52,134 nt of DNA from Thermosediminibacter litoriperuensis (GTDB lineage Bacteria; Bacillota; Thermosediminibacteria; Thermosediminibacterales; Thermosediminibacteraceae). The notes beneath the pieces were generated by a model, which did no database searches, was not told the origin of the DNA, and saw only the letters and a list, made by a program, of their open reading frames with translations. The stretch's first letter is position 1, and each line of letters opens with the position of its first letter. Shown here piece by piece: positions 358 through 48,745 of the stretch. Location of the stretch: the NCBI RefSeq assembly GCF_008124715.1, contig NZ_VNHO01000017.1:1-52134 (forward strand), given 5' to 3'. Both the position numbers and the translations under genes were made by a program.

Positions 358-966
358 TAAGAATTCATCGGTTTTCTTTAGGACCTCCTCATTTCCCACC
401 AGCACCAGAAAATCTCCCCCTTTTATTTGGAAATGGGGTCCTGGTGAGAGAAACAGCTCTTCTCCTCTTCTCACGGCTATAATTGTGGCGCCGGTATTTT
501 CCCAAAATTTCAATTCTGATATGGTTTTTCCCACCGCCCTGCTTTTTTCATTCACCCGAACCTCCGCCGGGTTAAAGGCGTTGATATTTCTCAGCCTGTT
601 GGCATACTCAATGGTCTTTATTAAAATTAGCTCGAATCTTTCGTCCAGCCGCCTTCGGGCTTCCAGGAGCTCGGTTAACTCATTTCTAAGGGACTCCAGA
701 GTTTGCTTTTCGTTGAAACGGTCTACGTATTTATACGCGGCCTGCCTTGATTTTACTATTATACCTCTACCCTGCTCCGAAGAAACCACTCCCATATCCT
801 CTAGCAGGGAAACAGCCCGCCGGATGGTTTCGGGAGAAACGTTGTAAAGCCCGGCCAGATTCGACCTCCCGTATAGTTTTTCACCCTCGCTGAATTCCCC
901 CTGGACAATCCTCCTGGCTATATCAAGGGCAATATATTCGTATCTGGGTCTTACCACTTCATTCAT
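346..966 (-). CDS. GntR-family regulator with RCK_C (TrkA_C) ligand domain, BusR-like
   Basis: A 206-residue cytoplasmic transcription factor. Residues about 8-75 form a GntR winged helix ('YEYIALDIARRIVQGEFSEG', then 'YNVSPETIRRAVSLLEDMG'). Residues about 85-125 are a probable coiled-coil dimerisation helix. Residues about 128-206 match an RCK_C/TrkA_C domain ('VGKTISELKFWENTGATI', 'GGDFLVLVG'). This architecture is that of BusR, the c-di-AMP-responsive repressor of the busAB osmolyte importer in lactic acid bacteria; c-di-AMP binding is inferred here. No busAB or potassium transporter lies next to it, so the target is unknown. The gene is monocistronic, with a GGAGGT ribosome site just upstream of the ATG and a hairpin at its end. 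Confidence 0.85.
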   Translation of the reverse strand: MNEVVRPRYEYIALDIARRIVQGEFSEGEKLYGRSNLAGLYNVSPETIRRAVSLLEDMGVVSSEQGRGIIVKSRQAAYKYVDRFNEKQTLESLRNELTELLEARRRLDERFELILIKTIEYANRLRNINAFNPAEVRVNEKSRAVGKTISELKFWENTGATIIAVRRGEELFLSPGPHFQIKGGDFLVLVGNEEVLKKTDEFLNTP

Positions 967-1403
967 TTAAAATACCTCCGGCTTTATTTTATGTTGCTTA
1001 TCAGTCAAAAACGATTTTCAATAATGCTTATTTTCTTTATGGATTCTAATTATTCTTAAGCCAACGTATCTGTATTCGTATCTTTATGAACCTCCTTCCT
1101 GGCCGGATCTCACTTTAGGAGTCGTGCCTGTCGAAATATTTCAAGCATTTGAGGGGAAGATAAGTTTTTTATGATAGCATCTACTTTGATTTTATTTTAG
1201 GACGTATATATTATAGGACGTATTAAAAATAAGTTTCAAGAGATCATTAAATAATTACAAAAAATTTTCTGATAAATAAGGGAAAAGTAAAGGGATAAGT
1301 TTCATTTTTAGCATAAACAAATTTTGGCCCGGATGCCGATATTATAGAAGGGAAAATTGATACAATGTAGAAACTGTATAAAAAATCTGGCCATATTCAA
1401 GTT
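967..1403. other. AT-rich intergenic stretch without a gene; one direct repeat
   Basis: No coding frame with recognisable content is seen. The only structure noted is a 9-base direct repeat AGGACGTAT at 1199-1207 and 1215-1223, a 16-bp period within TA-rich sequence, which could be a protein-binding site or chance. Confidence 0.4.
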
Positions 1404-1550
1404 CTTTTCGCTGCGCCACCACCGAGAGCGAAGGAGGCGCACTGCTTGTTGTACAACTGTCCCGGAAATGTGGGTCAGCTGAAAGGCGACATACAGCTCG
1501 GCTGTGCCAATGCTTTTCTTAAGTGCGTTTCAAAGGCAAAAAAGGCTTGA
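1404..1550 (+). pseudogene. Fragment of a PRD/sigma-54 (LevR-type) regulator
   Basis: In the frame ending at the TGA at 1548-1550 the translation includes 'LLYNCPGNVGQLKGDIQLGC' followed by 'ANAFLK'. This closely resembles the segment after the AAA+ domain of LevR/ManR-like sigma-54 activators ('..CPGNIGQLKSDIQ..CAKAFL'). No start, ATPase domain or PRD domains are present nearby, so this is a short relic of a much larger gene. Its frame stops before the next fragment. Confidence 0.6.
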
Positions 1551-1557
1551 GTATATA

Positions 1558-1718
1558 ATGACAGCCGGACTGGACGAGCTTTTTCAATTCAAGAAACCCA
1601 GCTTTACCCTCTCCAAATATGCCATGAAGGAGCCCCCGAGCACAAAATCTGGCTCATGGATGGCAAAAAAGTGTGTCTCGACTGTTTCATCGATTACAGG
1701 AGGGAAATAATTATATAA
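1558..1718 (+). pseudogene. Frameshifted remnant of an FmdE-like zinc-ribbon C-terminus
   Basis: The first part reads 'MTAGLDELFQFKKPSFTLSK' in one frame. The continuation makes sense only in a second frame, 'ICHEGAPEHKIWLMDGKKVC' followed by 'LDCFIDYRREI', ending at the TAA at 1716-1718. Together they resemble the tail of FmdE-family proteins: a 'DELF' strand region, then a Cys/Gly/Glu zinc ribbon with a 'dGkxvCldCf' ending. The frame change and the missing N-terminal domain make it a pseudogene. The assignment rests on motif memory and is moderate. Confidence 0.45.
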
Positions 1719-1910
1719 GCTTTTAACTCAGAAAGATCAGTGTTTTCAGTTCGGATATATGGCTGGCCATCAATTATGTCAGGGCATCCGCCAGGCCTTA
1801 GTGCTTCAATCCAGATGGAAGTATAAACTAAAAATCGTTCTTTCATCATTGCGCATTTCCTCCAGCATCATGCCATCTATTGCAATATCAATTATCCAAA
1901 TGCTATTTAT
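1719..1910. other. Intergenic sequence with nothing recognised
   Basis: No convincing coding frame or structure is seen between the pseudogene debris and the hicAB promoter. Short open frames on both strands have no recognisable motifs. Confidence 0.35.
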
Positions 1911-1934
1911 ATGTGTAGATAACATGTGTATAAT
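1911..1934 (+). promoter_or_regulatory. Putative hicAB promoter/operator
   Basis: A consensus TATAAT box at 1929-1934 lies 17 bases before the toxin start. A direct repeat ATGTGTA (1911-1917 and 1924-1930) overlaps it with a 13-bp period, a plausible binding site for the HicB ribbon-helix-helix domain. No good -35 box is present, so repression or activation by a bound protein is possible. Confidence 0.45.
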
Positions 1935-1951
1935 ATAATTGAAAGGAGTTA

Positions 1952-2161
1952 ATGATAAATGTGAAAACAAAAAATCTCTCTTCCAGAGAAATTTTACAAA
2001 TACTTTTTGAAAACGGATGGTACATAGAAAGAATCGATGGCTCCCATCACATCTTAAAACACCCCGAGAAAAATAATCCGGTGATTGTGCCTCATCCAAG
2101 GAAAGCCCTAAAGCAAGGAACGATAAGATCTATATTTAAACAAGCGGGGCTATTAAATTAA
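1952..2161 (+). CDS. hicA: HicA-family mRNA interferase toxin
   Basis: A 69-residue protein with the HicA double-stranded-RNA-binding-like fold. The visible signature is 'GWYIERIDGSHHILKHPE', in which the catalytic His sits in the 'GSHxxxkhp' motif, followed by 'VIVPHPRKALKQGTIRSIFK'. HicA toxins cleave mRNA and are neutralised by HicB. The toxin precedes the antitoxin, as is usual for this family. The ribosome site AAAGGAG at 1942-1948 is only three bases from the ATG at 1952; the in-frame GTG at 1961 is 12 bases away, so the true start is uncertain by three codons. Length is normal and the active-site His is present, so the toxin looks intact. Confidence 0.9.
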   Translation: MINVKTKNLSSREILQILFENGWYIERIDGSHHILKHPEKNNPVIVPHPRKALKQGTIRSIFKQAGLLN

Positions 2162-2199
2162 CCCATCCCCAAAAAATTTCCGAAAGGAGGTTTAAATCA

Positions 2200-2607
2200 T
2201 TGAAGAATAAATATTCATACCCGGCGGTTTTTGAACCTGCGGAAGAAGGCGGATATACCGTTACTTTCCCTGATCTGCCAGGGTGTATTACAGAAGGTGA
2301 TGACGAAGATGAAGCACTACGCATGGCAGAAGAAGCTTTAGGGCTTTATCTTTATACTTTGGAAAAAGAAGACGCTATAATTCCTGAACCTTCTAACATT
2401 GATGACGTAAAAGTTCCAGACGGCGGTTTCGTTAGAATTATAGATATCTGGATGCCGCTCGTGAGGGAACGGATCGAGAATAAAGCCGTTAACCTGACCG
2501 TCACCCTTCCGCGATGGCTGAAGGATGCAGCTGAAAAGAAAAAAGTCAATTTTTCGCAGGTGCTTCAAGCTGCGCTAAAGGAATACCTTGGTTTACACGT
2601 GCGTTAA
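2200..2607 (+). CDS. hicB: HicB-family antitoxin
   Basis: A 135-residue antitoxin. Residues 1-70 form the HicB partial RNase H-like domain ('YPAVFEPAEEGGYTVTFPDL' then 'PGCITEGDDEDEA'), which caps the toxin. Residues about 93-135 form a ribbon-helix-helix DNA-binding segment ('NLTVTLPRWLKDAAEKK', 'FSQVLQAALKEYL'). The start is TTG at 2200, chosen because AAAGGAGG at 2183-2190 is well spaced. It lies 38 bases after hicA and is probably co-transcribed, with autorepression through the repeat at 1911-1930 inferred from the family. Confidence 0.92.
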   Translation: MKNKYSYPAVFEPAEEGGYTVTFPDLPGCITEGDDEDEALRMAEEALGLYLYTLEKEDAIIPEPSNIDDVKVPDGGFVRIIDIWMPLVRERIENKAVNLTVTLPRWLKDAAEKKKVNFSQVLQAALKEYLGLHVR

Positions 2608-2633
2608 ACTATAGCCGACCGGCAACCGGGAGT

Positions 2634-2664
2634 AAGGAGCAGAAATCTGCTCCTTTAATTTTTT
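2634..2664 (+). terminator. Rho-independent terminator after hicAB
   Basis: A 9-bp stem AAGGAGCAG (2634-2642) / CTGCTCCTT (2647-2655) with a 4-base loop is followed by a T-rich run ending near 2664. Confidence 0.85.
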
Positions 2665-2718
2665 CAGGCTGAAAATTTTCAAGATAGTCTACAAGTGATA
2701 TTATCAAAAAATAGCCAT

Positions 2719-2747
2719 TTGACAACAGCCTGATTATCTGATATACT
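2719..2747 (+). promoter_or_regulatory. Sigma-A promoter of the pyr operon
   Basis: A perfect TTGACA at 2719-2724 and TATACT at 2742-2747 are separated by 17 bases. The predicted start near 2754 gives a leader of about 200 bases before pyrB. Confidence 0.9.
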
Positions 2748-2770
2748 GGACAAAACAATTAAATAGCAAC

Positions 2771-2876
2771 TGAAAAGGACTCACCTTTAAACTGGTCCCG
2801 TGAGGCTGGTAAGGTGAAAAGCTGGAAGGAAAAGTATGTACAGCCTTTCTCCACCTGACGGAGAAAGGCTTTTTTG
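2771..2876 (+). promoter_or_regulatory. PyrR-dependent transcription attenuator
   Basis: The segment 2794-2812 (GGTCCCGTGAGGCTGGTAA) matches the PyrR RNA-binding loop consensus, closed by CACCTT (2782-2787) / AAGGTG (2811-2816). Downstream is a strong terminator: 11-bp stem 2842-2852 / 2860-2870 followed by six Ts. The bases 2812-2826 can alternatively pair with 2841-2855, giving an antiterminator. By analogy with the Bacillus pyr leaders, UMP-bound PyrR would hold the binding loop and release the terminator. No pyrR gene lies in this cluster, so the protein must be encoded elsewhere. Confidence 0.9.
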
Positions 2877-2900
2877 ATGAAGACATTCCCCCCTGCTTTA

Positions 2901-2928
2901 CCCTGCCGTCTCAACGGCGGGGTTTTTT
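2901..2928 (+). terminator. Second terminator-like hairpin directly before pyrB
   Basis: CCCTGCCGT (2901-2909) pairs with ACGGCGGGG (2914-2922) with one G-T pair and a CTCA loop, followed by TTTTTT at 2923-2928. It ends seven bases before the pyrB ribosome site. No second PyrR loop precedes it. Confidence 0.7.
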
Positions 2929-2949
2929 AGTATGAAAGGAGGAAGGGCG

Positions 2950-3873
2950 TTGTTCAAACACAGGCATCTTCTCGGGTTGGGAAAATTGACGGCGGAGGAT
3001 ATCGCCTACATTCTCCGTTTAACGGCTTCTTTCAAGGAAATTATCGACAGGGATGTAAAAAAGTTCCCCACCCTTAAGGGCAAGGCGGTGGTGAACCTTT
3101 TTTACGAGGCCAGCACCAGAACCAGAAACTCCTTTGAACTGGCGGCCAAGTACCTGAGCGCCGACACCATCAGCTTCGCATCCTCGGGGAGCAGTGTGGA
3201 AAAGGGAGAGACTCTGAAGGACACGGCGAAGACCCTGGAAATGATGGGGGTCGATGCGATAGTCATCCGCCACGGGTCTTCCGGCGCTGCCGAGTTCCTG
3301 AGCCGGCATGTGAGAGTCCCGGTCATCAACGCCGGGGACGGCACCCACGAGCACCCCACCCAGGCCTTGCTGGACATGTTCACGGTGATGGAGAAAAAGG
3401 GTACGCTCTCGGGTCTGAAGGTGGCGATCGTGGGCGATATACTCCACAGCCGGGTGGCCCGGTCCAACATCTTCGGTTTTACAAAAATGGGCGCCGAAGT
3501 TTACGTGGCGGGCCCGGCGACCCTCATGCCCCCGGATGTGGAGAAGACGGGCGCCCGGCTGGCCGGGACCGTGGATGAAGCGGTGAAGGACGCCGATGTG
3601 GTGATGGCCCTGCGGATACAGCTGGAACGGCAGAAAAAAGGGATGTTTCCCACCGCGAAAGAGTACTCCGGGTTCTTCGGAATAAACGGCGAAAGATTAA
3701 AACTTGCCAAGCCCGACGCGCTCTTGCTGCACCCGGGTCCGGTGAACAGGGGGCTGGAGCTTTGTTCCGAAGTCGTGGACGGACTGCAGTCGCTAATAAA
3801 CGAACAGGTAAGGAACGGTGTGGCCGTGCGGATGGCGGTGCTGTATATCTTGATCGGAGGTGGCAGAAAGTGA
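2950..3873 (+). CDS. pyrB: Aspartate carbamoyltransferase catalytic subunit
   Basis: Condenses carbamoyl phosphate with aspartate to carbamoyl aspartate, the committed step of pyrimidine synthesis. The 307-residue protein has the carbamoyl-phosphate site '[17 protein letters not shown]', the '[12 protein letters not shown]' motif and '[13 protein letters not shown]' of the aspartate-binding end. Start: TTG at 2950, because AAAGGAGG at 2935-2942 is ideally spaced and homologues begin at this point; an upstream ATG at 2932 would put the ribosome site inside the gene. No regulatory pyrI follows, as in other Firmicutes. The stop overlaps the pyrC start by 4 bases (GTGA). Confidence 0.97.
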
Positions 3874-5207
3874 AAAAACTGCTGAAGGGAGCGAGGGTTT
3901 TGGACCCGGCCCGGGGACTGGACGGTGTAATGGATGTGCTGATCGAAGGCGGGAAGATCTCCGCCGTGGATAAAGAAGTCACGGCCGGCGACGCCGAAGT
4001 GGTGGACCTCACGGGGCTCGTACTGGTGCCGGGACTGGTGGATATGCACGTGCATTTTCGCGACCCGGGTTTTCAATACAAGGAGGACATCGAATCTGGC
4101 TCCAGGAGCGCCGCCGCGGGGGGATTCACCACCGTCGCCTGCATGCCCAATACCAATCCCCCGGTAGACAATGCGGCCCTAGTGAGCTACGTCATTTCGA
4201 AGGCCGAAAGAGTGGGGCTTGTCCGGGTACTTCCCGTGGGATGCGTATCGAAGGGCCGGCAGGGGAGGGAAATGGCGGAAATAGGCGATATGGCTGCGGC
4301 GGGGGCGGTGGCCTTCTCCGACGACGGAAAGCCCGTAGCCGACAGCTCTTTGATGAGAAGGGCACTGCTCTACGCTTCGATGTTCGACAGGGTGGTAATA
4401 GACCACTGCGAGGAACCGGCGCTTTCAGAAGGCGGTGTGATGAACGAGGGGTATATTTCGACTGTGCTGGGCCTTCCCGGCACACCCCGTTCCGCCGAGG
4501 AAACAGCTGTGGCCCGGGACATCATACTGGCCGGGGAAACCGGTGCCCGGGTCCACATAGCTCACGTGAGCACCCGGGGTTCCGTGGAACTGATCAGGAG
4601 GGCGAAGGCCGAAGGGGTCCGGGTTTCCTGCGAGGTGACTCCGCACCACCTGGTTTTAACCGAGGAAGTGGTGATGGGATACGATACCTGCGCTAAAGTC
4701 AACCCGCCCCTGCGCACGGAGGAAGATGTCGAGGCCCTGATTGAGGGGCTGAAGGACGGAACCATCGATGCCATAGCCACGGATCATGCGCCCCACTCGG
4801 AGGACGAAAAGGACCTGGAGTTCGACAGGGCGGCCTTCGGTATATCAGGCCTGGAAACGGCCCTGGGGCTGGTGCTGACCTGCCTTGTGACCCCAGGGAA
4901 ACTGAGCCTTTCCGAAGCCGTAAGGAAGATGACCCGGGAGCCTGCCGGCATTCTGGGCGTTGAGGCGGGCACCCTGAAGCCCGGCAGTTCCGCCGACATC
5001 ACGGTCATAGACCCGGATAGGGAGTGGACGGTAAATAAATACGATTTTCTTTCTAAAGGAAAAAACACCCCCTTTCACGGGTGGAAGTTGAAAGGTAAGG
5101 CCGTAATGACGTTTACGGGCGGTAAAATGGTGTTTAAAGACGCCGCATGGGAAAGGGACCGGAAAGCAAGGATTGTATATAAAACGGGGGGATCACCCCG
5201 CCCGTAA
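3870..5207 (+). CDS. pyrC: Dihydroorotase (type I)
   Basis: Cyclises carbamoyl aspartate to dihydroorotate in the cytoplasm. The 445-residue amidohydrolase shows the metal-binding '[16 protein letters not shown]' near residue 58, 'HIAHVST' mid-protein and '[20 protein letters not shown]' with the catalytic Asp. The start GTG at 3870 is preceded by GGAGG at 3856-3860 and overlaps the pyrB stop; longer upstream frames would run far into pyrB. Length and motifs fit the class I dihydroorotases of Bacillus and relatives. It sits 14 bases before carA, so translation is likely coupled through the operon. Confidence 0.97.
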
Positions 5208-5221
5208 AAAGGAGGTCTTCG

Positions 5222-6316
5222 ATGAAAGCCATTCTTGTCCTGGAGGACGGGAGCGCCTTCGAGGGTAAAGCCCTGGGGGCCTCCGGGACCGCGTGGGGGG
5301 AACTGGTGTTCAACACCGGCATGACGGGATATCAGGAGGTCATAACCGACCCCTCCTATGCGGGACAGATCGTGATTCTGACGTATCCGCTGATAGGCAA
5401 TTACGGGACCCGTGATGCTTTTTCCGAGTCCCAAAAACCGGTCCTGCGGGGGGTTGTGGTCCGGGAGGCCTGCGAAAGGCCCCCGGCCGGTGACGATGGG
5501 AACCTCGACGACTACCTGAAGCGGTGCTGCATAGTGGGCATCGAAAGGGTGGACACCAGGCTTTTAACCAAAAAAATAAGAAGTTGCGGAGTTATGAAGG
5601 CCGTTCTGTCCACCGAGCTGGATGTAAGAGATGCCCGGGAGATGCTTCGCCGGCAGCCCGAATTGGGTAGCCAGGATCTGGTAAAACAGGTCACTTCAAA
5701 AGGCGTGCGGGTTTACGGCGAAGAAAACGGGATTCCGGTGGCCCTGATGGATTTCGGGGTTAAACACAACATCCTCCGGTGCCTGGTGAGGCGGAGGTGC
5801 AGGGTTACGGTTTTCCCGGCGGATGCACCGGCCGGCTCCGTGCTCGAATCCCGGCCCGCCGGAGTGCTGCTCTCCAACGGCCCCGGAGACCCGAAAAAAG
5901 CCGGTTACGCCGTAAATACTGTAAGGGAGCTGCTGGGGAAGGTGCCCGTTTTCGGCATATGTCTGGGGCACCAGATAATGGCCCTGGCGCTGGGGGGAGA
6001 TACTTACAAGCTCAGGTTCGGGCACAGGGGTTCCAACCACCCGGTCAGAGACCTTAAAAATGGTAGGGTATTCATCACATCCCAGAATCACGGTTACGCC
6101 GTGGACGGGGCTTCCCTCGAAAAAGGCGTTGAGGTGACCTTCGTCAACGCTAACGACGGCACGGTGGAGGGGCTTGAAGTACCCAAATTCCGGGCCTTTT
6201 CGGTGCAGTTTCACCCGGAGGCGTCTCCGGGCCCCGGTGACACCGAATATCTCTTCGACGAATTCCTGAAACTCGCAGGCGGGGAGGTGCGAAGATGCCG
6301 AAGGATCCTTCAATAA
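5222..6316 (+). CDS. carA: Carbamoyl-phosphate synthase small (glutaminase) subunit
   Basis: Releases ammonia from glutamine and channels it to CarB. The 364-residue protein has the N-terminal CPSase small domain ('[20 protein letters not shown]', '[18 protein letters not shown]') and a class I glutamine amidotransferase domain with nucleophile Cys in 'GICLGHQ' and the His/Glu pair in '[17 protein letters not shown]'. AAAAGGAGG lies just before the ATG. The gene overlaps carB by 22 bases, implying coupled translation at matched stoichiometry. In this operon it is the pyrimidine-pathway enzyme (pyrAA-type position). Confidence 0.97.
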
Positions 6317-8250
6317 AGAAAGTCATGGTTATAGGTTCGGGTCCCATCGTTATCGGCCAGGCCGCGGAATTCGACTACGCCGGCACCCAGGCCTGCCTTT
6401 CTTTAAAAGAAGAGGGCCTGGAAGTGGTGCTGATAAACAGCAACCCCGCCACAATCATGACCGATTCCAACATTGCCGATAGGGTGTATATAGAACCCCT
6501 CACCGTGGAATTTGCCGCGGAAGTCATACGCCGCGAAAAGCCCGACGGTCTTTTGCCAACCCTGGGCGGCCAGGTGGGGCTCAACCTGGCGGTGGAGCTG
6601 GCGGAAAGCGGAATACTTGCAAAAGAAGGGGTTAAGCTGCTCGGCACCCCTCTTTCGGCCATCAAAAAGGCTGAAGACAGGGAATTGTTTAAAAGGTTGA
6701 TGCAGGAAATAGGAGAACCGGTGCCCGAAAGCCGCATAGTATACAGCCCGGAGGAAGCCGTGGCTTTCGCCCGGGAGGCCGGCTTTCCGCTGATAGTAAG
6801 GCCCGCGTATACCCTGGGCGGCACCGGCGGGGGCGTGGCCTTCAACGAAGAAGAACTCCTGGAGATTACCGGCCATGGACTGAAGCAGAGCCGCATACAC
6901 CAGGTACTTCTGGAAAAGAGCCTGCTGGGGATGAAGGAGATAGAATACGAGGTGATGCGCGACGGCAACGACCAGTGCATTGCCGTATGCAACATGGAGA
7001 ATGTGGACCCGGTGGGCATCCACACCGGCGACAGTATAGTGGTGGCGCCAAGCCAGACACTGTCCGACAGGGAATACCAGAGGCTGAGGGCGGCTTCGCT
7101 GAAAATCATAAGGGCCCTGGGCGTAGAAGGCGGGTGCAACGTGCAGTTTGCCCTGGACTCAGAAAGCGGCAGGTATTACGTCATCGAGGTAAACCCCAGG
7201 GTAAGCCGGTCCAGCGCCCTGGCCTCTAAAGCCACGGGTTACCCAATAGCAAAGATCGCCGCCAAAATAGCCGTGGGCCTTTGCCTCGACGAAATTAAAA
7301 ATCCCGTGACCGGCAAGACCACCGCATGTTTCGAACCGGTACTGGACTATGTGGTGGTTAAAATGCCCCGCTGGCCCTTCGACAAATTTACAGAGGCCGA
7401 CAGGGTCCTCGGTACCCAGATGAAGGCCACGGGAGAGGTCATGGCCATAGACAGGACTCTGGAGGGGGCCCTGATGAAAGGGGTAAGGTCCCTGGAACGG
7501 GGCGTGATAGACCTGTCTTTAAAGGGTATGGATGCCTTATCTCTGCAGGAGATAAAAGATAAAATTTCCAGGGCTACCGACGAGAGACTTTTTGCCTTAG
7601 CCGAAGCCCTGCGCCGGGGTGTGAACCTCGATGAAATTTGCAATTTATCCGGGATCGACAGGTTCTTCCTTGAGAAAATGAAAAACATCGTAAACATGGA
7701 GAACAGGCTTAAAGAGGAGAAATTGACGGGAGGGCTTTTGAAGGAGGCCAAACGGATGGGCTTTCCGGATGCCGTCATAGCAAAGCATGCCGGTTGTGCG
7801 GAAGAAGAAGTAAGAGTACTGAGGGGAAAATTCGCCATCAAACCCACATATAAGATTGTGGATACTTGCGCGGCGGAATTCGAAGCACAGACGCCTTATT
7901 TTTACTCTACCTTCGAAGAAGAAAACGAGGCCGTGCTCGAAGACAAACCCACAGTCGTCGTAATAGGGTCCGGCCCCATAAGGATCGGGCAGGGCATAGA
8001 GTTTGACTACTGCTGCGTGCATTCCGCCTGGGCCGCAAAAAGAAGCGGTTTCAGGACGGTCGTCATTAACAACAACCCGGAGACAGTCAGTACCGACTTC
8101 AACATCGCCGACCGGTTGTATTTCGAGCCCCTGTACATTGAGGACGTTATGGCGGTGATAGAAAATGAAAAACCCCTGGGTGTTCTGGTGCAGTTCGGCG
8201 GGCAGACGGCCGTAAATCTGGCCGGAGAGCTGGAGAGGCGGGGGATATAA
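6295..8250 (+). CDS. carB: Carbamoyl-phosphate synthase large subunit, part up to an in-frame stop
   Basis: This is the first 651 codons of carB, which makes carbamoyl phosphate from bicarbonate, ammonia and two ATP. It contains the carboxyphosphate half ('[20 protein letters not shown]', ATP-grasp residues about 128-330, '[20 protein letters not shown]'), the oligomerisation domain (about 400-545) and the first Rossmann-like subdomain of the second half ('[16 protein letters not shown]'). It stops at TAA (8248-8250) where homologues continue 'G-hydrophobic-K-ILGTS'. The frame resumes unchanged after the stop, so this looks like an AAA-to-TAA nonsense change or an error rather than a natural end. 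On its own this part would lack the carbamate-phosphorylating ATP-grasp domain. Confidence 0.9.
8248..8250 (+). other. carB: In-frame TAA interrupting carB
   Basis: The codon lies between 'ELERRGI' and '[18 protein letters not shown]'. Both sides are in the same frame and together match an uninterrupted CarB of 1,062 codon positions. Lys is the usual residue at or near this point, reachable by a single T-to-A change. The flanking bases are ATA-TAA-ATA; no recoding signal is seen. Confidence 0.85.
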
Positions 8251-8265
8251 ATACTGGGGACCGCC

Positions 8266-9483
8266 GTGGAATCCATAGATATCGCCGAGGATAGGGAAAA
8301 ATTCGACGCCCTCTTGAGTGAACTTGGCATACCGCGGCCCAAAGCTGGAGCCGTAAGAAGCACCGCCGAAGCCCTGGAGAAAGCAAGAGAGATAGGTTTC
8401 CCCATGCTGGTGCGGCCCTCCTACGTATTGGGCGGCAGGGCGATGGAAATAGTATATAGTATTGAAGAATTGAAGGCGTATATGCAGGAAGCGGTAGAGG
8501 TTTCACCGGAAAGGCCCGTGCTCATCGACAGATATATATACGGCACCGAAGTGGAAGTGGACGCGATAAGCGATGGCGCCGAAGTGCTTATACCCGGCAT
8601 CATAGAGCACATCGAACGGGCCGGGATCCATTCCGGCGACAGCATAGCAGTATATCCTCCCAGGACGTTGACCGAAACGGCGGTTAAAAAAATAGTTGAC
8701 TACACCACCGGGATAGCCCGGAAACTCTACGTCAGGGGGCTGGTGAACATTCAGTTTGTAGTCCGGGGGGAGGATGTGTACGTAATTGAAGTAAACCCGC
8801 GCTCAAGCCGTACGGTGCCTTATCTGAGCAAGATTACAGGTATCCCGATGGTTGAGGCGGCCACCAGGATAGCTCTCGGCGCCACCCTTTCGAGCCTTCG
8901 GCTCAAAGGGGGCCTGGCGCCGGAACCCGGTTTTGTGGCGGTCAAAGCCCCGGTGTTTTCCTTCTCAAAACTCCGCCAGGTGGAGACCTCCCTGGGGCCG
9001 GAAATGAAGTCCACCGGCGAGGTGCTGGGCATCGACAAGACCTTTGAAAAGGCGCTGTACAAGGCGTTTACCGCCGCTGGATTAAAAATACCCTCCGGCG
9101 GGGTTATTCTCGCCACGATCGCCGACCGGGATAAGCCCGAGGCCGTAAAACTTCTGAGAGACTTTCAAAACCTGGGCTTCGACATCTATGCCACGGCGGG
9201 CACCGCCCGGGCTCTCGAGGCTGCGGGGGTAAAGGCCCAAGTGGTGAACAAGGTCAGAGAAGGGTCGCCGAATATAATGGACCTGTTTCGGGAGGGCCGG
9301 GTGGATATTGTGATAAATACCCTCACCAGGGGGAAGGCGCCTGAACGGGACGGCTTCAAAATCCGGCGGGCCGCCGCCGACGACGGCATTCCGTGCCTCA
9401 CTTCTCTGGACACCGCCCGGGCCCTTTACAGGGTGATAGAAGCCACCGGCATGAGGGTGACGCCGATTGGAAAGGAAGGGTGA
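8266..9483 (+). CDS. carB: Carbamoyl-phosphate synthase large subunit, part after the in-frame stop
   Basis: The remaining 405 codons hold the second ATP-grasp domain ('[20 protein letters not shown]', 'GGRAMEIVY', '[20 protein letters not shown]') and the C-terminal MGS-like allosteric domain ('[20 protein letters not shown]', '[20 protein letters not shown]'). A GTG at 8266 could allow re-initiation 15 bases after the TAA, but the only purine-rich stretch (8231-8245) is too far upstream for a good ribosome site. Four codons between the TAA and this GTG ('ILGTA') still match the family, showing that the frame is one gene. No other changes suggest longer decay. Confidence 0.88.
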
Positions 9484-10291
9484 TATTCTGGCCGGTTTAC
9501 TGTTCTCAACAAAAGTGATTCAAAATGTATTGATTGCCTATGACATATATCATATGAAGATATGCTGCCCGGAGGTGGCCGAAAAGGCTGCGCCGGGCCA
9601 GTTTCTGCACATTCGATGCTCCGACGGGCCGACTCCACTGCTCCGGCGGCCCATAAGCATCGCCGGAGCAAATGAAAAGGACGGGACGGTGGAAATGGTG
9701 TACCGCGTGCTGGGGGAGGGAACGCGCTTGATATCTCAAAAGAAAGCCGGGGAAATCCTTGACGTAATGGGTCCGCTGGGCAGGGGGTTTCCCGTGCCTT
9801 TAGACGCCGTAGACCCCGTCCTGATCGGCGGAGGCGTGGGCGTGGCCCCGTTGCTGTACCTGGCCCAAAAGATCGCCGGCCCCCTTTCACGGTCCGGAAG
9901 ATCCGGAGCCGCCTTCATAGGGTTTTCCACTGCCGGAGAGGTTTTCGGGGTGGATTTCCTGAAATCCTGCGGATTTACTGTGTTTTTAACTACCGACGAC
10001 GGCACAGCCGGTCAAAAAGGAGTTCCGACGGAGGCGTTTGAAAACTGTATAAAGGGACATGAGGTGCAAAAGCAGTTTGACATCGTATACGCCTGCGGCC
10101 CAAAACCCTTCCTGGCAAAGGTAAAAGACGCGGCGGTCCGGGGAAAAATCCCCGCATACCTTTCGCTGGAGGAGCGCATGGCCTGCGGAGTCGGGGCATG
10201 CCTTGGATGTGCGGTAAAATCCGCAGGCGAGGGATATAAAAAGGTGTGCAGGGACGGACCGGTGTTTGAGGCGGGAGAAATACAGTTGTAG
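9467..10291 (+). CDS. pyrK: Dihydroorotate dehydrogenase electron-transfer subunit
   Basis: Partner of PyrD in the class 1B enzyme, passing electrons from dihydroorotate through FAD and a [2Fe-2S] cluster to NAD+. The protein has a ferredoxin-reductase FAD fold ('[11 protein letters not shown]'), an NAD-binding Rossmann region ('[18 protein letters not shown]') and the cluster ligands Cys-x4-Cys-x2-Cys in '[15 protein letters not shown]' with a fourth Cys in '[10 protein letters not shown]'. The start is uncertain: TTG at 9467 overlaps the carB end, but AGGAAGGG at 9472-9479 would better serve a CTG at 9488 or a start further in, and homologues begin near '[16 protein letters not shown]'. Confidence 0.93.
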
Positions 10292-10354
10292 AATGGAAAA
10301 ATGCGGTCGGGAAAACCTTAAGGGTTTCAAAAGGATTTAGAGAGGAGAAGCGCT

Positions 10355-11386
10355 TTGAACCGGGACAAGCTTTCGGAGCCATGCCCAAAAATGGAATACA
10401 TTCGTAATTGTGCAGTTGACCTTTGCGTTGAAATAGCGGGGATTTCCATGAAAAACCCGGTCATGGTGGCTTCGGGCACTTTCGGGTTCGGAGAAGAGTA
10501 TGCAAAAATTTACGACATAAACCGGCTGGGAGCCGTGGTTACCAAAGGGATCACCCTTTTACCGAGGCACGGCAATCCGCCGCCCAGGCTTTGCGAGACC
10601 CCCGCCGGCCTCCTCAATTCCGTGGGCCTGGAGAACCCCGGCGTTGAGAGGTTTATCAGAGAGGAATGGCCCCGCCTTAAAAAACTCCCGGTGCCGGTTA
10701 TCGTCAATATAGATGGGGATACGGTGGAAGAATACCGTGAAATTGCAAAGCGGCTGTCGGAGTTAAACGGCCTTGCGGCTCTGGAAGTAAACATATCGTG
10801 CCCCAATGTGGAAAAAGGCGGCATTGCCTTCGGTCAGGACCCCGGCAGCGCCTATGAGGTGGTAAGGGCCGTAAAGGAGGCGGCTACGCTCCCGGTAATA
10901 GCAAAACTTTCCCCTAACGTCACAAGTATTCAAAAAATAGCAGCGGCGGTGGAATCGGCCGGAGCGGATGCCGTATCTCTTATCAACACCGTTTTGGGCA
11001 TGGCCGTAGATATCGACAGACAGCGGCCCGTATTTAAAAGGATTTTTGCGGGGCTCTCCGGTCCCGCCGTAAAGCCCATAGCCCTCCGCATGGTATGGGA
11101 AGCCTATGAAGCGGTGAAAATACCTGTAATCGGCATGGGAGGCATCAGCACATGGCGCGATGCGGTGGAATTCATCCTGGCCGGGGCTTCAGCCGTGGCG
11201 GTAGGTACCGCCGGTTTTATCGACCCTGAAGCGCCTTTAAAAATCATCGACGGCCTTGAGAAATACCTGGTCGAATGCTCGATATGCGAAAGTGCTTTAA
11301 AAACCTCCGGCGAAGACAAGACAATAAAACTCCGGGACATTGTCGGCCTGGCCCACAAAAATTTTACGGAAGGAGATTTTTCATGA
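10355..11386 (+). CDS. pyrD: Dihydroorotate dehydrogenase, class 1B catalytic subunit
   Basis: Oxidises dihydroorotate to orotate with FMN. The 343-residue protein shows 'NPVMVASGTFGFGEEYAKIY', the active-site Cys in 'EVNISCPNVEKGG' typical of class 1 enzymes, and the FMN phosphate-binding 'VIGMGGISTWRDAVEF' and 'AVAVGTAGF'. Pairing with pyrK places it in class 1B. The start is TTG at 10355 behind AGGAG at 10343-10347. It is somewhat longer than the usual 300-310 residues because of about 15 extra N-terminal residues and a C-terminal tail (from about residue 308) containing 'CSICESALKTSGED'. It overlaps pyrF by 4 bases (ATGA). Confidence 0.96.
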   Translation: MNRDKLSEPCPKMEYIRNCAVDLCVEIAGISMKNPVMVASGTFGFGEEYAKIYDINRLGAVVTKGITLLPRHGNPPPRLCETPAGLLNSVGLENPGVERFIREEWPRLKKLPVPVIVNIDGDTVEEYREIAKRLSELNGLAALEVNISCPNVEKGGIAFGQDPGSAYEVVRAVKEAATLPVIAKLSPNVTSIQKIAAAVESAGADAVSLINTVLGMAVDIDRQRPVFKRIFAGLSGPAVKPIALRMVWEAYEAVKIPVIGMGGISTWRDAVEFILAGASAVAVGTAGFIDPEAPLKIIDGLEKYLVECSICESALKTSGEDKTIKLRDIVGLAHKNFTEGDFS

Positions 11387-12093
11387 CCCAAGATTTTTCG
11401 AAAGTGATTATAGCCCTCGATACCCCTGATGAGAATAAGGCGCTGGGCCTTGTCAGGCTTTTGAAAAACCGGATACGCGTGTTTAAAGTCGGGCTGGAAC
11501 TTTTCTGCTCCGCAGGCCCGGCCGTAATAAAAAAGATAAATGCGGAAGGGTGCCGGGTCTTTCTTGACCTGAAATTTCACGACATTCCCAACACCGTGGC
11601 CGGTGCCGCCCGGGCGGCGGTGCGTTCCGGCGCCTTTATGTTCAACGTGCATGCGTCGGGCGGAAGGGAAATGATGCAGAAGGCCCGCGAGGCTGCCGAA
11701 AGAGCTTTTATAGAAAAGGAAAATCATCCGGAAAGGCCCAAAATTTTGGCCGTCACCGTGCTGACCAGCCTGGACGACCGGGACTTAAGAGAAATGAATA
11801 TCACCGAATCCTCCGCCGGTCAGGCGGTACGGCTGGCGAAGCTGGCCCTGGCTGCGGGCATGGACGGCGTCGTGACGTCACCCGGGGAAATAGAGGCCAT
11901 CAGGAATGCCGTGGGGAAGGATTTTCTCATAGTGACACCGGGGGTGCGCCCGCCCTGGGCCGGCACCGGTGACCAGAAAAGGGTGGCGACTCCAAAAGAA
12001 GCTTTAAAAGCCGGGGCCGACTATATCGTCATCGGCCGCCCCGTTACCGCCGCTCCGGATCCCCTTGCCGCCCTGGAAAGAATTTTTGTTTAA
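11383..12093 (+). CDS. pyrF: Orotidine 5'-phosphate decarboxylase
   Basis: Converts OMP to UMP. The 236-residue TIM barrel has the catalytic Lys/Asp tetrad in 'VFLDLKFHDIPNTVAGAAR', 'IIALDTPDENKALGLV' at the N-terminus and the phosphate-gripping 'VTPGVRPPWAGTGDQKRVAT' and 'IVIGRPVT' near the end. The ATG at 11383 follows AAGGAG and overlaps the pyrD stop; an upstream in-frame ATG at 11275 lies inside pyrD and has no ribosome site. Family: bacterial group 1 PyrF. Confidence 0.96.
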   Translation: MTQDFSKVIIALDTPDENKALGLVRLLKNRIRVFKVGLELFCSAGPAVIKKINAEGCRVFLDLKFHDIPNTVAGAARAAVRSGAFMFNVHASGGREMMQKAREAAERAFIEKENHPERPKILAVTVLTSLDDRDLREMNITESSAGQAVRLAKLALAAGMDGVVTSPGEIEAIRNAVGKDFLIVTPGVRPPWAGTGDQKRVATPKEALKAGADYIVIGRPVTAAPDPLAALERIFV

Positions 12094-12117
12094 ATTTTGT
12101 GATTGGAGAGAATCGCT

Positions 12118-12687
12118 GTGACACAGGAACAGATCAGGAAACTTTTTACCGAAACCGGTGTCCTGCAGACCGGCCACTTTATCCTGACCTCCGGCCGGCA
12201 CAGCTCGAAATACCTCCAGTGCGCCCGGCTCCTCCAGTATCCCACTGCTGCCGAAAAGGCGTGCCGGGAGCTGGCGCAAAACTTCAAGGATATGGAGGTT
12301 CAAACAGTGATCGGCCCCGCCCTTGGCGGCATAATCGTTTCGTACGAAGTGGCGAGAGCGCTTGATGCACGCGCCCTGTTCGCAGAACGGGAAAACGGGC
12401 GAATGGTCCTCCGGCGGGGGTTTGCCCTCAAGCCCGGCGAAAGGGTGCTGGTCGTGGAAGACGTGGTCACCACCGGCGGTTCCGTAAAAGAAGTCAGCGA
12501 GTTCGTAAAATCCTGCGGCGCCGAAGTGCTTGCGGTGGGGGCCCTCGTAGACCGGAGCGGAGGAAAGGTGGATTTCGGCGTGCCCTCCCGTTACCTTCTG
12601 AATCTCGAGGTGGAGTCATACCTCCCGGAAGAGTGTCCTTTATGCGCTCAAGGCATACCGGCGGAAAAGCCGGGAAGCCGAAGTTAA
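12118..12687 (+). CDS. pyrE: Orotate phosphoribosyltransferase
   Basis: Transfers phosphoribose from PRPP to orotate to give OMP. The 189-residue type I phosphoribosyltransferase has the PRPP-binding loop 'VLVVEDVVTTGGSV', the hood segment 'GVLQTGHFILTSGRHSSKY' and 'IGPALGGIIVSYEVARAL'. The GTG at 12118 was chosen because GGAGAG at 12105-12110 is well spaced; an upstream TTG at 12103 would place that site inside the gene. The C-terminus carries two Cys in 'PEECPLCAQGIP', common in this subgroup. It is the last gene of the pyr operon. Confidence 0.95.
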   Translation: MTQEQIRKLFTETGVLQTGHFILTSGRHSSKYLQCARLLQYPTAAEKACRELAQNFKDMEVQTVIGPALGGIIVSYEVARALDARALFAERENGRMVLRRGFALKPGERVLVVEDVVTTGGSVKEVSEFVKSCGAEVLAVGALVDRSGGKVDFGVPSRYLLNLEVESYLPEECPLCAQGIPAEKPGSRS

Positions 12688-12744
12688 AAAGATGGAAAGC
12701 AATGGCTGAAAAATAGGTTTGGCAAACCAAATACGCAGGTCCCT

Positions 12745-24339: not shown

Positions 24340-24606
24340 AGAATTTGAACATTGACAACCGAATAATGAGCCTCGGCTCATACTCAAATCCGATGACCAG
24401 AAGCGAGAAGGCTCATTATTTTTGGATAAAAGTTTTCTAATGTTTTATAAACATGGCAATTGCGCGCAATATCATCCTGTGGATGGTATGGCGTATGATA
24501 ATCTCAAGAATATAACCTTTGCATATATTCGAGAGGGGGGATATAAAGAAGTTATAAAGCTTTGTTAATATAAATATTTATAAAAAACAATAAGGAGGAT
24601 TTGGGT
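24340..24606 (+). promoter_or_regulatory. Long structured 5' leader of the S-layer-like gene
   Basis: Three related segments allow competing folds: ATGAGCC (24366-24372) can pair with GGCTCAT at 24375-24381 or, as an 11-bp stem from 24362, with GGCTCATTATT at 24410-24420, which is followed by a T-rich run and would act like a terminator. A further hairpin pairs 24469-24477 with 24481-24489. The ribosome site AAGGAGG is at 24592-24598. No known riboswitch consensus was recognised. It may stabilise a highly abundant mRNA or attenuate it. Confidence 0.5.
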
Positions 24607-41057: not shown

Positions 41058-42401
41058 GTGAGGTTTTTTGATTCGTGGCGGTCTTTCTGGGTGCGGTTCA
41101 TTTTCGGCGCTCAGATGGCGTGGCACGGGGTTGCGGTCAATCCCCTCCGCTCCGGCCTCACTATGCTGGGAGTGGCCATTGGCGTTGCGTCGGTTATAAG
41201 CCTCATGGGTATAGGTGAGGGGGCGCGCCTGGCCGTGGTGCGGCAGTTTGAGAGCCTGGGTTCCAACGTAATCGTGATAAAGGCCCACGACGCGAAGGCC
41301 GAGTTTCAGCCCGAAGAGGCCCGGGAGCTGGTGGAGAGGGTTTCCGGGCTCAGATATGCGTCCCCGGTGACCCGGACTAATGCCGTCATGAAGTGGCGAA
41401 GGGCCAGGGGACAGGTGGATATACTGGGTGTGAGCAGCGATTTCCCCCAGCTTCGCGACCATAAACTCGTATCCGGCAGGTTTTTTACTCCTTGGCATGT
41501 GGAACAGCGGTCACCGGTAGCCGTGCTGGGCTACAACATAGGTGCGGGCCTGTTGGGTGGCAGAAGTCCCGTGGGGCAGACGGTCACGCTGAACGGGCAG
41601 ACCTTCAGGATCGTGGGTGTGCTGGAGAAAAAAGGCGAAGGTCAGGGGGAAGGCATAGACGATAAAATAATAATACCGTACACTACGGCCATGAAGATAG
41701 CTGGGAAAAGGACGGTCGACGAAATATGGGTTAAAGCCGAATCGGCAAAGGCGGCGGACCTTGCAATAGCCCAGCTGGGGCGAATTTACAGGAGAAAGCT
41801 GGGGCTTGACAACAAAGCCCCGGTTCCCACCGGCGGGGAGCAGAAGCAGGGAGAAACGCCCGGCGAAGGGCCCGGAACGGGAAAACCGGTGGAACCCAAG
41901 CCCGCTCCGGCCCCCGAAACCCCCGGGAAAGACAGCACGCCGGGCCTGGAACTTGGCAAGGACATAATTACAATTACCAATCTCAATACGCTGGTAGAAG
42001 AGGCCGATAAGGCCAACAGGGTCATGACACTGCTTTTAGGGGGAATAGCTGCGGTATCCCTGCTGGTAGGAGGCCTCGGCATAATGAACATAATGCTGGT
42101 GGCGGTAACCGAGAGGACCGGCGAGATAGGCGTGAGGAGAGCGCTGGGGGCCAAGCGCTCCGACCTTCTGATGCAGTTCCTGCTGGAGGCCCTTTACCTG
42201 AGCGGCATGGGAGCGGCGGCTGGCACCGCCGCGGGATTATGGGGCGTGGGCATATTCAACCGGTACGGACTCACCGCCGTCGTCAGCCTGGAGGCGGTGA
42301 AAGTCGCGGTGCTGGTGGCCCTGGGGTGCGGCCTGCTTTTCGGCGTGTATCCGGCGTGGACCGCCGCCTCGGTGCCGCCCGTGGAAGCCCTGCGACGATA
42401 A
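41058..42401 (+). CDS. MacB/FtsX-type ABC permease with Pro/Gly-rich insert
   Basis: A 447-residue permease: N-terminal helix ('RSGLTMLGVAIGVASVISLM'), MacB_PCD domain (about 50-250), then a low-complexity Pro/Gly/Glu insert at about 255-300 ('GETPGEGPGTGKPVEPKPAP') just before the FtsX helices ('AVSLLVGGLGIMNIMLVAV', 'RTGEIGVRRALGAKRSDLLM'). The insert is absent from the paralogue at 28524-29699. GTG at 41058 is six bases from AGGGGGG; an ATG at 41052 abuts the site. Last gene of the operon. Confidence 0.92.
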   Translation: MRFFDSWRSFWVRFIFGAQMAWHGVAVNPLRSGLTMLGVAIGVASVISLMGIGEGARLAVVRQFESLGSNVIVIKAHDAKAEFQPEEARELVERVSGLRYASPVTRTNAVMKWRRARGQVDILGVSSDFPQLRDHKLVSGRFFTPWHVEQRSPVAVLGYNIGAGLLGGRSPVGQTVTLNGQTFRIVGVLEKKGEGQGEGIDDKIIIPYTTAMKIAGKRTVDEIWVKAESAKAADLAIAQLGRIYRRKLGLDNKAPVPTGGEQKQGETPGEGPGTGKPVEPKPAPAPETPGKDSTPGLELGKDIITITNLNTLVEEADKANRVMTLLLGGIAAVSLLVGGLGIMNIMLVAVTERTGEIGVRRALGAKRSDLLMQFLLEALYLSGMGAAAGTAAGLWGVGIFNRYGLTAVVSLEAVKVAVLVALGCGLLFGVYPAWTAASVPPVEALRR

Positions 42402-42423
42402 AAAGAGCTCCTTTACGGAGCTT
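42401..42423 (-). terminator. Hairpin between ABC permease and nucleotidyltransferase fragment
   Basis: AGCTCC (42406-42411) pairs with GGAGCT (42417-42422). On the minus strand it is followed by CTTTTTA, so it mainly suits the truncated minus-strand gene; on the plus strand it sits four bases after the permease stop without a T-run. Confidence 0.5.
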
Positions 42424-42593
42424 ACCGCACCGGGTACCAGTATTATACCCAAATCTATGTCGCTGTCAGTCCTCATCTTATCAAGTGCAGAGCCAAAAAG
42501 ATATACCCCCGCAATTTCGGTGAATTGGCCGAGCTTTTCTGCTATAAAGACTTCCAACTTACCCCTGTCAATTTGAATCAGGTCCGATGGCAT
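42423..42593 (-). pseudogene. Truncated MNT-type nucleotidyltransferase (toxin/antitoxin fragment)
   Basis: A minus-strand ATG at 42593 with AAGGAAG upstream opens about 57 codons that match the start of minimal nucleotidyltransferases: 'FTEIAGVYLFGSALDKMRTD' with the GSxxxxxxxxDSDID active-site motif ('SDIDLGIILVP'). After residue 57 the frame runs into the terminator hairpin and the antisense of the ABC permease, so the C-terminal half has been lost. MNT proteins usually pair with HEPN toxins; no partner is left. Confidence 0.7.
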
Positions 42594-42684
42594 TTTGTCA
42601 CTTCCTTTTGGTTGCTATTGAAAACTCCTTAATAAAATTCTATTACAAGAAATAAGTAAGAATTTATAAGTGTATCCCCGCACA

Positions 42685-47383: not shown

Positions 47384-47400
47384 TGAATTGCCATCGGACG

Positions 47401-47487
47401 GAGGGGTGTCCGAGTGGTTTAAGGAGCTGGTCTTGAAAACCAGTGCCCCAAAAGGGCCGGGGGTTCGAATCCCTCCCCCTCTGCCAG
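47401..47487 (+). tRNA. tRNA-Ser (anticodon TGA)
   Basis: Acceptor GGAGGGG pairs with CCCCTCT; anticodon stem-loop CTGGT-CTTGAAA-ACCAG gives TGA; long class II variable arm; TTCGAAT T-loop; CCA encoded at 47485-47487. Confidence 0.95.
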
Positions 47488-47497
47488 AATTCCCGGG

Positions 47498-47592
47498 GAG
47501 AGATGGCCGAGAAGGTCGAAGGCGGTCGCCTGCTAAGCGACTATACGGACCTAAAATCCGTATCGCGGGTTCGAATCCCGCTCTCTCCGCCA
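47498..47592 (+). tRNA. tRNA-Ser (anticodon GCT)
   Basis: Acceptor GGAGAGA / TCTCTCC; anticodon stem-loop GTCGC-CTGCTAA-GCGAC gives GCT, reading AGC/AGU; long variable arm; CCA encoded. Confidence 0.95.
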
Positions 47593-47597
47593 TACGT

Positions 47598-47674
<77 letters not shown>

Positions 47675-47688
47675 GAGACTTATCATAT

Positions 47689-47765
47689 GCGCCCGTAGCT
47701 CAGGAGGAAAGAGCAGCGGTTTCCTAAACCGCGTGCCGGGGGTTCGAGTCCTCCCGGGCGCACCA
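47689..47765 (+). tRNA. tRNA-Arg (anticodon CCT)
   Basis: Acceptor GCGCCCG / CGGGCGC; anticodon stem-loop GCGGT-TTCCTAA-ACCGC gives CCT, reading AGG; CCA encoded. Confidence 0.95.
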
Positions 47766-47789
47766 TTCTTTTTAAAAGGGATTAAAATA

Positions 47790-48248
47790 ATGCAGGAAAA
47801 AGACCACGAATACTTCATGCGCGAAGCCCTGAAGGAAGCACGGAAGGCCTTTGAGGAAGACGAAGTGCCCATCGGGGCGGTAATCGCGTACGATGGCCGC
47901 ATAATTGCCCGGGCCCATAACCTCAGAGAGGGAAGCCGGGACGCCACCGCTCACGCGGAGGTACTGGCGATAAGGGCCGCGTGCGATGCCATGGGCACCT
48001 GGAGGCTCACGGGATGCAGCCTTTACGTTACGCTGGAGCCGTGCCCCATGTGCGCCGGGGCCATTATCCTGGCCAGGCTCGATAGGGTGGTGTTCGGCGC
48101 GCAGGACCCGAAAGCCGGGGCTGCGGGCAGTGTGGTGGACCTTTTCAGCGTCGAAAGATTCAACCACCACCCGGAAGTAGTTTCCGGTGTGCTGGCCGAA
48201 GAATGCGGCATTTTGCTGAAGGAGTTTTTCAGGCAAAAAAGATCATAA
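47790..48248 (+). CDS. tadA: tRNA-specific adenosine deaminase
   Basis: Deaminates A34 of tRNA-Arg(ACG) to inosine so that one tRNA reads CGU, CGC and CGA. The 152-residue zinc enzyme has the catalytic 'TAHAEVLAIRAACDAMGTWR' (HAE) and the metal site 'TLEPCPMCAGAIILARLDRV' (PCxxC). Start ATG at 47790 behind AAAAGGG; the frame is open far upstream through the tRNA genes, but that part is not coding. It lies between tRNA genes and may be read from the tRNA promoter. Confidence 0.96.
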   Translation: MQEKDHEYFMREALKEARKAFEEDEVPIGAVIAYDGRIIARAHNLREGSRDATAHAEVLAIRAACDAMGTWRLTGCSLYVTLEPCPMCAGAIILARLDRVVFGAQDPKAGAAGSVVDLFSVERFNHHPEVVSGVLAEECGILLKEFFRQKRS

Positions 48249-48254
48249 CTTGGT

Positions 48255-48345
48255 GGAGAGATGGCCGAGAGGTCGAAGGCGCTCGCCTCGAAAGCGAGTA
48301 GGCGGTAATCCCGCCTCGTGAGTTCGAATCTCACTCTCTCCGCCA
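48255..48345 (+). tRNA. tRNA-Ser (anticodon CGA)
   Basis: Acceptor GGAGAGA / TCTCTCC; anticodon stem-loop CTCGC-CTCGAAA-GCGAG gives CGA; long variable arm; CCA encoded. Confidence 0.95.
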
Positions 48346-48357
48346 GAAAAAAAGCGT

Positions 48358-48452
48358 GGAGAGATGGCTGAGTGGTCGAAGGCGCTCGACTGGAAATCGA
48401 GTAGACGGGGAAAATCCTCGTCTCGCGGGTTCGAATCCCGCTCTCTCCGCCA
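48358..48452 (+). tRNA. tRNA-Ser (anticodon GGA)
   Basis: Acceptor GGAGAGA / TCTCTCC; anticodon stem-loop CTCGA-CTGGAAA-TCGAG gives GGA; long variable arm; CCA encoded. With TGA, GCT and CGA this completes the four serine isoacceptors. Confidence 0.95.
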
Positions 48453-48475
48453 TTTTTATATCTGCAGAAAAATTT

Positions 48476-48745
48476 GGCCGTGCTAGACGGGGAGGTAGCG
48501 GTGCCCTGTACCCACAAACCGCTGTAGTGGGGTCGAATTCCCTCCCGAGGTTTTCTCCCTGTGGGGTCCGGCCATGACAAGTGGCGAGGAGGGCCGGGTC
48601 CCGCGCAATGGAAACTTCTGAACCCCGCCAGGTCCGGGAGGAAGCAACGGTAAGGAAGCCCTTCCATGTGCCGCGGGGCAGCCTGGTCGGAGCTAACTAT
48701 CATGGTAACGCCCGGAGGGAAAAATCGACGGAGGGTGCACGGCCA
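48476..48745 (+). ncRNA. ffs: Signal recognition particle RNA, large (Bacillus/Clostridium) type
   Basis: About 270 bases closed by GGCCGTGC (48476-48483) / GCACGGCC (48738-48745). The 5' part (GTGCTAGACGGGGAGGTAGC) is the conserved start of Gram-positive scRNA with the Alu domain. The helix 8 core AGGTCCGGGAGGAAGCA near 48630-48646 is the Ffh-binding signature. Position between tRNA-Ser and dnaX matches Bacillus relatives. Confidence 0.95.

Follow-up and report, generated by a model that had tools for sequence, protein, structure and literature searches.

The 52,134-nucleotide window analyzed here, contig C17 of the 68-contig draft genome of Thermosediminibacter litoriperuensis (2,343,706 bases, 98.9% complete), carries a pyrimidine biosynthesis (pyr) operon in which the carbamoyl phosphate synthetase (CPS) gene carB is interrupted by one in-frame TAA. 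We regard this stop, with a probability of about three in four, as a genuine and recent nonsense mutation that probably inactivates the only carB found. The 5' open reading frame (ORF) at 6295 to 8250 on the forward strand encodes 651 amino acids and is closed by the TAA at 8248 to 8250, after which the same frame stays open (8251 to 9483, forward strand) until a stop codon at 9481 to 9483. This TAA, codon 652, is the sole lesion in an otherwise intact 1,062-codon frame (6295 to 9483). The TIGR01369 model matches the frame at 1547 bits (cut-off, 1027) over profile positions 2 to 1051 of 1052, with exactly one TAA inside the match, excluding chance as the origin of the frame; the match is thus full length, and the frame is uninterrupted except at codon 652. 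These results uphold the first-pass annotation of this DNA, in which the stretches on either side of the TAA were read as one frame and together as one normal CarB.

On the 5' part lie the first synthetase half and the oligomerisation domain, followed by the beginning of the second half (Pfam CPSase_L_D1 in two stretches, D2, and D3); the 3' part continues that half with its ATP-grasp core and carries the MGS-like domain. The two parts align to Escherichia coli CarB residues 1 to 659 and 661 to 1046, respectively, and the stop thus takes the place of E. coli residue 660. Just after it, from residue 14 of the C part, begins the Pfam D2 (ATP-binding) match. As had also been proposed, the break therefore falls inside the second synthetase half, ahead of its ATP-grasp core. 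Compared to E. coli CarB (PDB 1bxr) and the TIGR01369 model, the window carB has the same domain order, operon, and conserved residues, differing by the one stop at the equivalent of residue 660.

No homologue examined shares this stop. A sense codon stands at the site in all 110 loci spanning it (some genomes counted twice, from two collections; 106 distinct sequences), none of which has a stop inside the gene, the only two stop flags being at C-terminal ends. The residue opposite the stop is Lys in 54 loci, Arg in 33, Pro in 13, and another in 10 (53, 30, 13, and 10 among the distinct sequences). Lys, which had been expected at the site, is indeed the commonest residue, but four members of the same family (G004 to G007) have Arg (AGG) there, while AAA is found in another family member, G002, and in the outgroup L034. 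Across this genome and 60 relatives, CarB scores above the cut-off in 51 of 61 genomes, with 62 listed matches, and an internal stop occurs in one of the 62, the window's own. The other family members with an above-cut-off match (G002 and G004 to G007) have carB without a stop, so the gene is intact in near relatives, as would be expected of a recent pseudogene. A different kind of carB damage is seen in the relative G056, where one copy (contig C24, 33833 to 36981) is broken into two overlapping frames between profile positions 89 and 90, and another, full-length copy lies on contig C5.

No second carB was found in the 98.9%-complete draft, the three other TIGR01369 matches reaching only 22 to 28 bits. 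The suggestion that the strain would be auxotrophic unless another carB exists can accordingly be narrowed: the genome search that it called for has been run, and the saving copy did not appear. A plasmid-borne carB was also considered and rejected, the search giving a single 73-base match in one record only.

Could the TAA be an assembly or sequencing error, the cell having an ordinary, intact carB? A lone substitution in an otherwise perfect gene, almost all conserved residues kept past the stop, and an undamaged remaining operon are what such an error would leave. To set against this, we aligned ORFs from the collinear parts of the Thermosediminibacter oceani genome with contig C1 (153 kb; 147 ORFs, 43,000 residues) and with the window (31 ORFs, 10,666 residues), counting a stop when it lay in a best match of >60% identity and had at least 25 aligned columns ahead of it and at least 10 behind it. 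None of the 178 alignments (~53,700 residues) showed an internal stop in this genome, meaning that the carB stop is isolated within the part examined and that a generally error-rich assembly is ruled out. Six of the 178 rows drew other flags, for partial or split matches: two 491-residue ORFs matching at a contig end, a 92-residue ORF matched across 70 residues, a 149-residue ORF of which 60 residues matched near a contig start with no explanation found, an N-terminal extension entering the signal recognition particle (SRP) RNA region, and a truncated nucleotidyltransferase-like frame. A laxer rule flagged stops in 5 of 32 window rows; four of these stops precede the likely start, and the remaining row is an 89-residue frame behind argS that resembles noncoding DNA. 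In the reverse direction, with T. oceani as the genome screened, the original rule picked out 14 of 177 rows, of which 5 contained stops; this set is uncurated, and some of its rows are probably not genes. The published genome coverage is reported as 509x (PMC9679718), and two relatives lack these genes (see below), which makes a loss plausible here. We therefore consider sequencing error an unlikely cause of the TAA.

The stop appears to be young. At the CarB columns conserved in at least 97% of 101 distinct homologs, 332 of 333 residues are kept, the lone departure being a Met-to-Ile change after the stop; at 95% conservation in 80 homologs, 383 of 386 are kept. The frame thus retains the near-invariant residues of a CarB. 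All three departures in the 80-homolog set lie past the stop, a weak hint of relaxed constraint. The ratio of branch lengths C-terminal and N-terminal of the stop is 1.36 in this lineage versus 1.48 in the sister-clade stem (14 hand-chosen rows), indicating no acceleration. Apart from this TAA, carB would be expected to gain 1.04 nonsense changes for each 1% of neutral divergence (indels not counted), and it has none, while synonymous divergence (dS) from T. oceani amounts to 0.21, 0.35, and 0.32 in the three genes compared. From these numbers we infer that the stop, if real and inactivating, is much younger than the split between T. litoriperuensis and T. oceani.

In the cell, translation would end after 651 residues (71 kDa). 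This piece would run from the first synthetase half through the oligomerisation domain to the first subdomain of the second half. The second, carbamate-phosphorylating unit would be cut in two, and its ATP-grasp core and the MGS-like allosteric domain would be missing or, in the best case, synthesized separately. Separate synthesis is conceivable, since the first listed start codon of the 3' part, GTG at 8266, would give a 405-residue, 44-kDa product. This GTG lies 15 nucleotides after the stop and is preceded at 6 nucleotides by a GGGG run, and the break just ahead of the ATP-grasp core, with the Pfam D2 match from residue 14 of the C part, might leave two assembling pieces, a new CarB fission inside the second synthetase unit. 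In Aquifex aeolicus, CPS is encoded by separate CPS.A, CPS.B, and GLN genes, and the separate halves assemble (PMC6022934). Both cases have a synthetase encoded by two open frames, but the Aquifex split lies between whole synthetase units, whereas the window's divides a single unit and keeps to one frame, lacking a dedicated start signal. The GGGG run and the GTG belong to ordinary codons of the ILGT-V stretch rather than being new signals, no examined locus has such a split, and a literature search on split carB1/carB2 found no paper. Two cooperating pieces are thus very improbable.

Full-length CarB by programmed or suppressor-mediated readthrough of the TAA, another of the earlier options, would explain why constraint is much alike on both sides of the stop. 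It found no support elsewhere. No stop-reading anticodon occurs among 42 tRNAs (6 in the window and 36 elsewhere in the genome), an incomplete set in which no Trp or Ile tRNA is listed; folding of the RNA, both around the stop and beyond it, is no stronger than that of shuffled sequences (z = -0.88 and 0.07); no other stop-interrupted gene was seen in the 178-ORF sample; and none of the 110 loci has a stop at the site, as recoding might have led one to expect. Of all the readings considered, readthrough is the one to which we give the least credence.

A nonsense mutation fits the history of the locus in near relatives. The complete sister genome of T. oceani (G001; a single contig of 2,280,035 bases) lacks the segment at window 1005 to 12723: it matches window 957 to 1004 and resumes at 12724, the flanks being joined by 134 other bases. 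Genome-wide, T. oceani gave no match to pyrB or pyrF and, for carA and carB, nothing beyond weak matches to paralogs; the pyrF model itself scores above the cut-off in just 8 of the 14 control genomes. In G003, of the same family but another genus (93% complete), pyrB, carA, carB, and pyrF were not found and the flanks are joined on one contig. Its junction is unlike that of T. oceani: it keeps a piece matching window 1719 to 1775, and nothing in it matches the small gene that precedes argS. The lack of carB in a further genome, G008, is not evidence, as only a pyrB fragment was found there, at a contig end. Two outgroups, L034 (labelled Tepidanaerobacteraceae) and L036 (Tepidanaerobacter), have the operon next to the same argS. 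A concatenated Pyr tree (18 hand-picked loci, one dropped for missing data) groups the window operon with the family members L035, L037, L038, and L173 with 98% ultrafast bootstrap (UFBoot) support; the divergent operon of G002 groups apart in this tree. Judged from gene order and phylogeny, the economical reading is that the operon was lost in T. oceani and G003, not gained here. Horizontal gain here in place of loss in T. oceani is disfavoured by the two-outgroup synteny and the concatenated tree.

Several results pull the other way. The genome-wide T. oceani search covered four of the eight operon genes, pyrB, carA, carB, and pyrF. A tree of CarB only supports the same grouping at just 67%. 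In the DNA fetched from the five other operon-bearing family genomes (G002 and G004 to G007), the operon is not beside argS, so the argument for a shared locus is carried by this genome and the two outgroups. Past the stop, the conserved CarB columns show hardly any change, a pattern that would suit a functional gene or a sequence error as well, and the seven other pyr genes and the PyrR element look undamaged, as expected of a working operon. Weighing these points against the single lesion, the lack of a second carB, and the losses in relatives, we find a recent nonsense mutation to be the best supported of the options that the first-pass annotation had listed.

If the stop inactivates CarB, glutamine-dependent carbamoyl phosphate synthesis, and hence de novo pyrimidine synthesis, would probably be off, and the pyrB, pyrC, carA, pyrK, pyrD, pyrF, and pyrE genes around carB would be stranded. 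The cell can probably afford this loss, presumably by salvaging pyrimidines, considering that it has upp and two NCS2-family permeases and no detectable ornithine carbamoyltransferase (OTC), and that its sister needs yeast extract. The uracil phosphoribosyltransferase gene upp scores above the cut-off in 9 of 9 family genomes; NCS2-family permeases number two in this genome and one in T. oceani, for which a need for yeast extract is reported (PMC3035372).

A requirement for arginine as a result of the lesion, also raised earlier, is not supported. Neither this genome nor that of T. oceani yielded an OTC, and no OTC remnant was seen at the argG locus in either species; pyrB is the only gene of the aspartate/ornithine carbamoyltransferase family found here. 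That no OTC was found implies that CarB here did not feed arginine, so that a carB stop need not imply arginine auxotrophy. The argG and argH genes are present (L204, contig C27, 9587 to 12117), and arginine could be made only from imported citrulline, if at all.

Another question is whether pyrimidines are still made without a complete CarB, either because the 651-residue piece works as a minimal dimeric CPS, as reported for the 41-kDa CPS of Methanobrevibacter smithii (PMC6022934), or because carbamoyl phosphate is supplied by another gene cluster. We give the two routes taken together only a small chance. The candidate cluster for the second route, on contig C38, consists of allH-allF-allG, a cyclase-family gene, arcC, a nitrilase-family gene, and a PucR-type regulator gene; ArcC scores 440 bits, and the FdrA/AllF model and the AllG and AllH Pfam families match above their cut-offs. 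With CarB dead, this cluster might supply carbamoyl phosphate to PyrB via oxalurate phosphorolysis and/or a reversed carbamate kinase. E. coli AllFGH is described as an oxamic transcarbamylase (OXTCase) that releases carbamoyl phosphate (PMC11326118), and a Pyrococcus furiosus carbamate kinase is said, in the introduction of PMC13260591, to have let CPS-less E. coli grow with 20 to 50 mM ammonium bicarbonate. The undamaged genes from pyrB to pyrE would also suit such a bypass, as would the lack of a match for arcC, pyrB, and pyrF in T. oceani. However, G002 has all seven cluster genes and an intact carB, suggesting that the ordinary role of the cluster is probably catabolic; disruption of arcC in Thermococcus kodakarensis is reported to have little effect in pyrimidine-free medium (PMC13260591); and catabolic transcarbamylases are said to make carbamoyl phosphate only when coupled to carbamate kinase (PMC6022934). 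On balance the bypass is improbable.

The cluster resembles the E. coli allFGH system in having AllF, AllG, AllH, and ArcC homologs together, and differs in having, besides these, genes of the cyclase and nitrilase families and a PucR-type regulator; that it serves pyrimidine synthesis is a hypothesis. The catabolic carbamate kinase of E. coli is reportedly ybcF. The seven genes (L177, contig C38, 384 to 8742) stand in the same order in G002 (L183, 4642 to 12971). Between the two genomes the cluster proteins are 54 to 98% identical, four of the seven exceeding 86%, compared to 71 to 72% for ArgS and ~66% for CarB, and the cluster may have moved horizontally between this lineage and that of G002.

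De novo pyrimidine genes get lost in bacteria able to take up pyrimidines. The present case is like such losses in that T. oceani and G003, of the same family, have joined flanks at the place of the operon; it differs in that only one codon is changed here and the seven other genes look undamaged. Under the nonsense-mutation reading, the carB stop would be the first step of a pathway loss already complete in T. oceani, among uracil-salvaging thermophiles, and would give a snapshot of the onset of that loss, one nonsense codon in an undamaged operon versus a whole segment gone in the sister. The type of event is well known, and as a CarB finding it is ordinary; what is noteworthy is the pairing of a one-codon lesion with the segment deletion of the sister, plus the AllFGH/ArcC cluster. 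The system offers a simple way to learn whether bacterial pyrimidine synthesis can be sustained by carbamoyl phosphate derived from the breakdown of purines. Were pyrimidines made without a complete CarB, a switch in the source of bacterial carbamoyl phosphate would have been caught in the act, and the downstream pyr genes would be retained for a reason.

By family matches the operon order is pyrB-pyrC-carA-carB-pyrK-pyrD-pyrF-pyrE, all on the forward strand and led by a PyrR-binding element at 2780 to 2878 (forward strand; Rfam RF00515, 55.6 bits, just above the gathering threshold of 54). No lesion was seen in any of the seven genes other than carB, departures from near-invariant columns being counted for each. 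Aspartate carbamoyltransferase (pyrB, 2932 to 3873) departs at 1 of 55 columns, dihydroorotase (pyrC, 3762 to 5207) at 1 of 67, and the small CPS subunit (carA, 5222 to 6316; TIGR01368, 464.8 bits) at 1 of 78. There are no departures in the dihydroorotate dehydrogenase electron transfer subunit (pyrK, 9467 to 10291; 42 columns), dihydroorotate dehydrogenase (pyrD, 10355 to 11386; 67 columns), orotidine-5'-phosphate decarboxylase (pyrF, 11275 to 12093; 42 columns), and orotate phosphoribosyltransferase (pyrE, 12103 to 12687; 41 columns). The true start of pyrC is probably near 3870, the first 37 residues of the ORF lying outside the best family match, and that of pyrF is probably near 11400.

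Between a GntR-type regulator gene and the pyr operon lies a HicA/HicB-type toxin-antitoxin pair (1961 to 2161 and 2200 to 2607; Pfam HicA_toxin and HicB_lk_antitox), which falls within the segment missing from T. oceani. A 946-residue ORF at 24601 to 27441 matches the collinear T. oceani sequence over its first 134 residues only and has no NCBIfam match at 1e-5. The nucleotidyltransferase-like remnant at 42399 to 42608 has ~70 residues matching a 167-residue T. oceani ORF and lies beside a length difference of ~660 bases. Farther along, at 47400 to 48742, six tRNA genes (four Ser and two Arg) are followed by the large bacterial SRP RNA.

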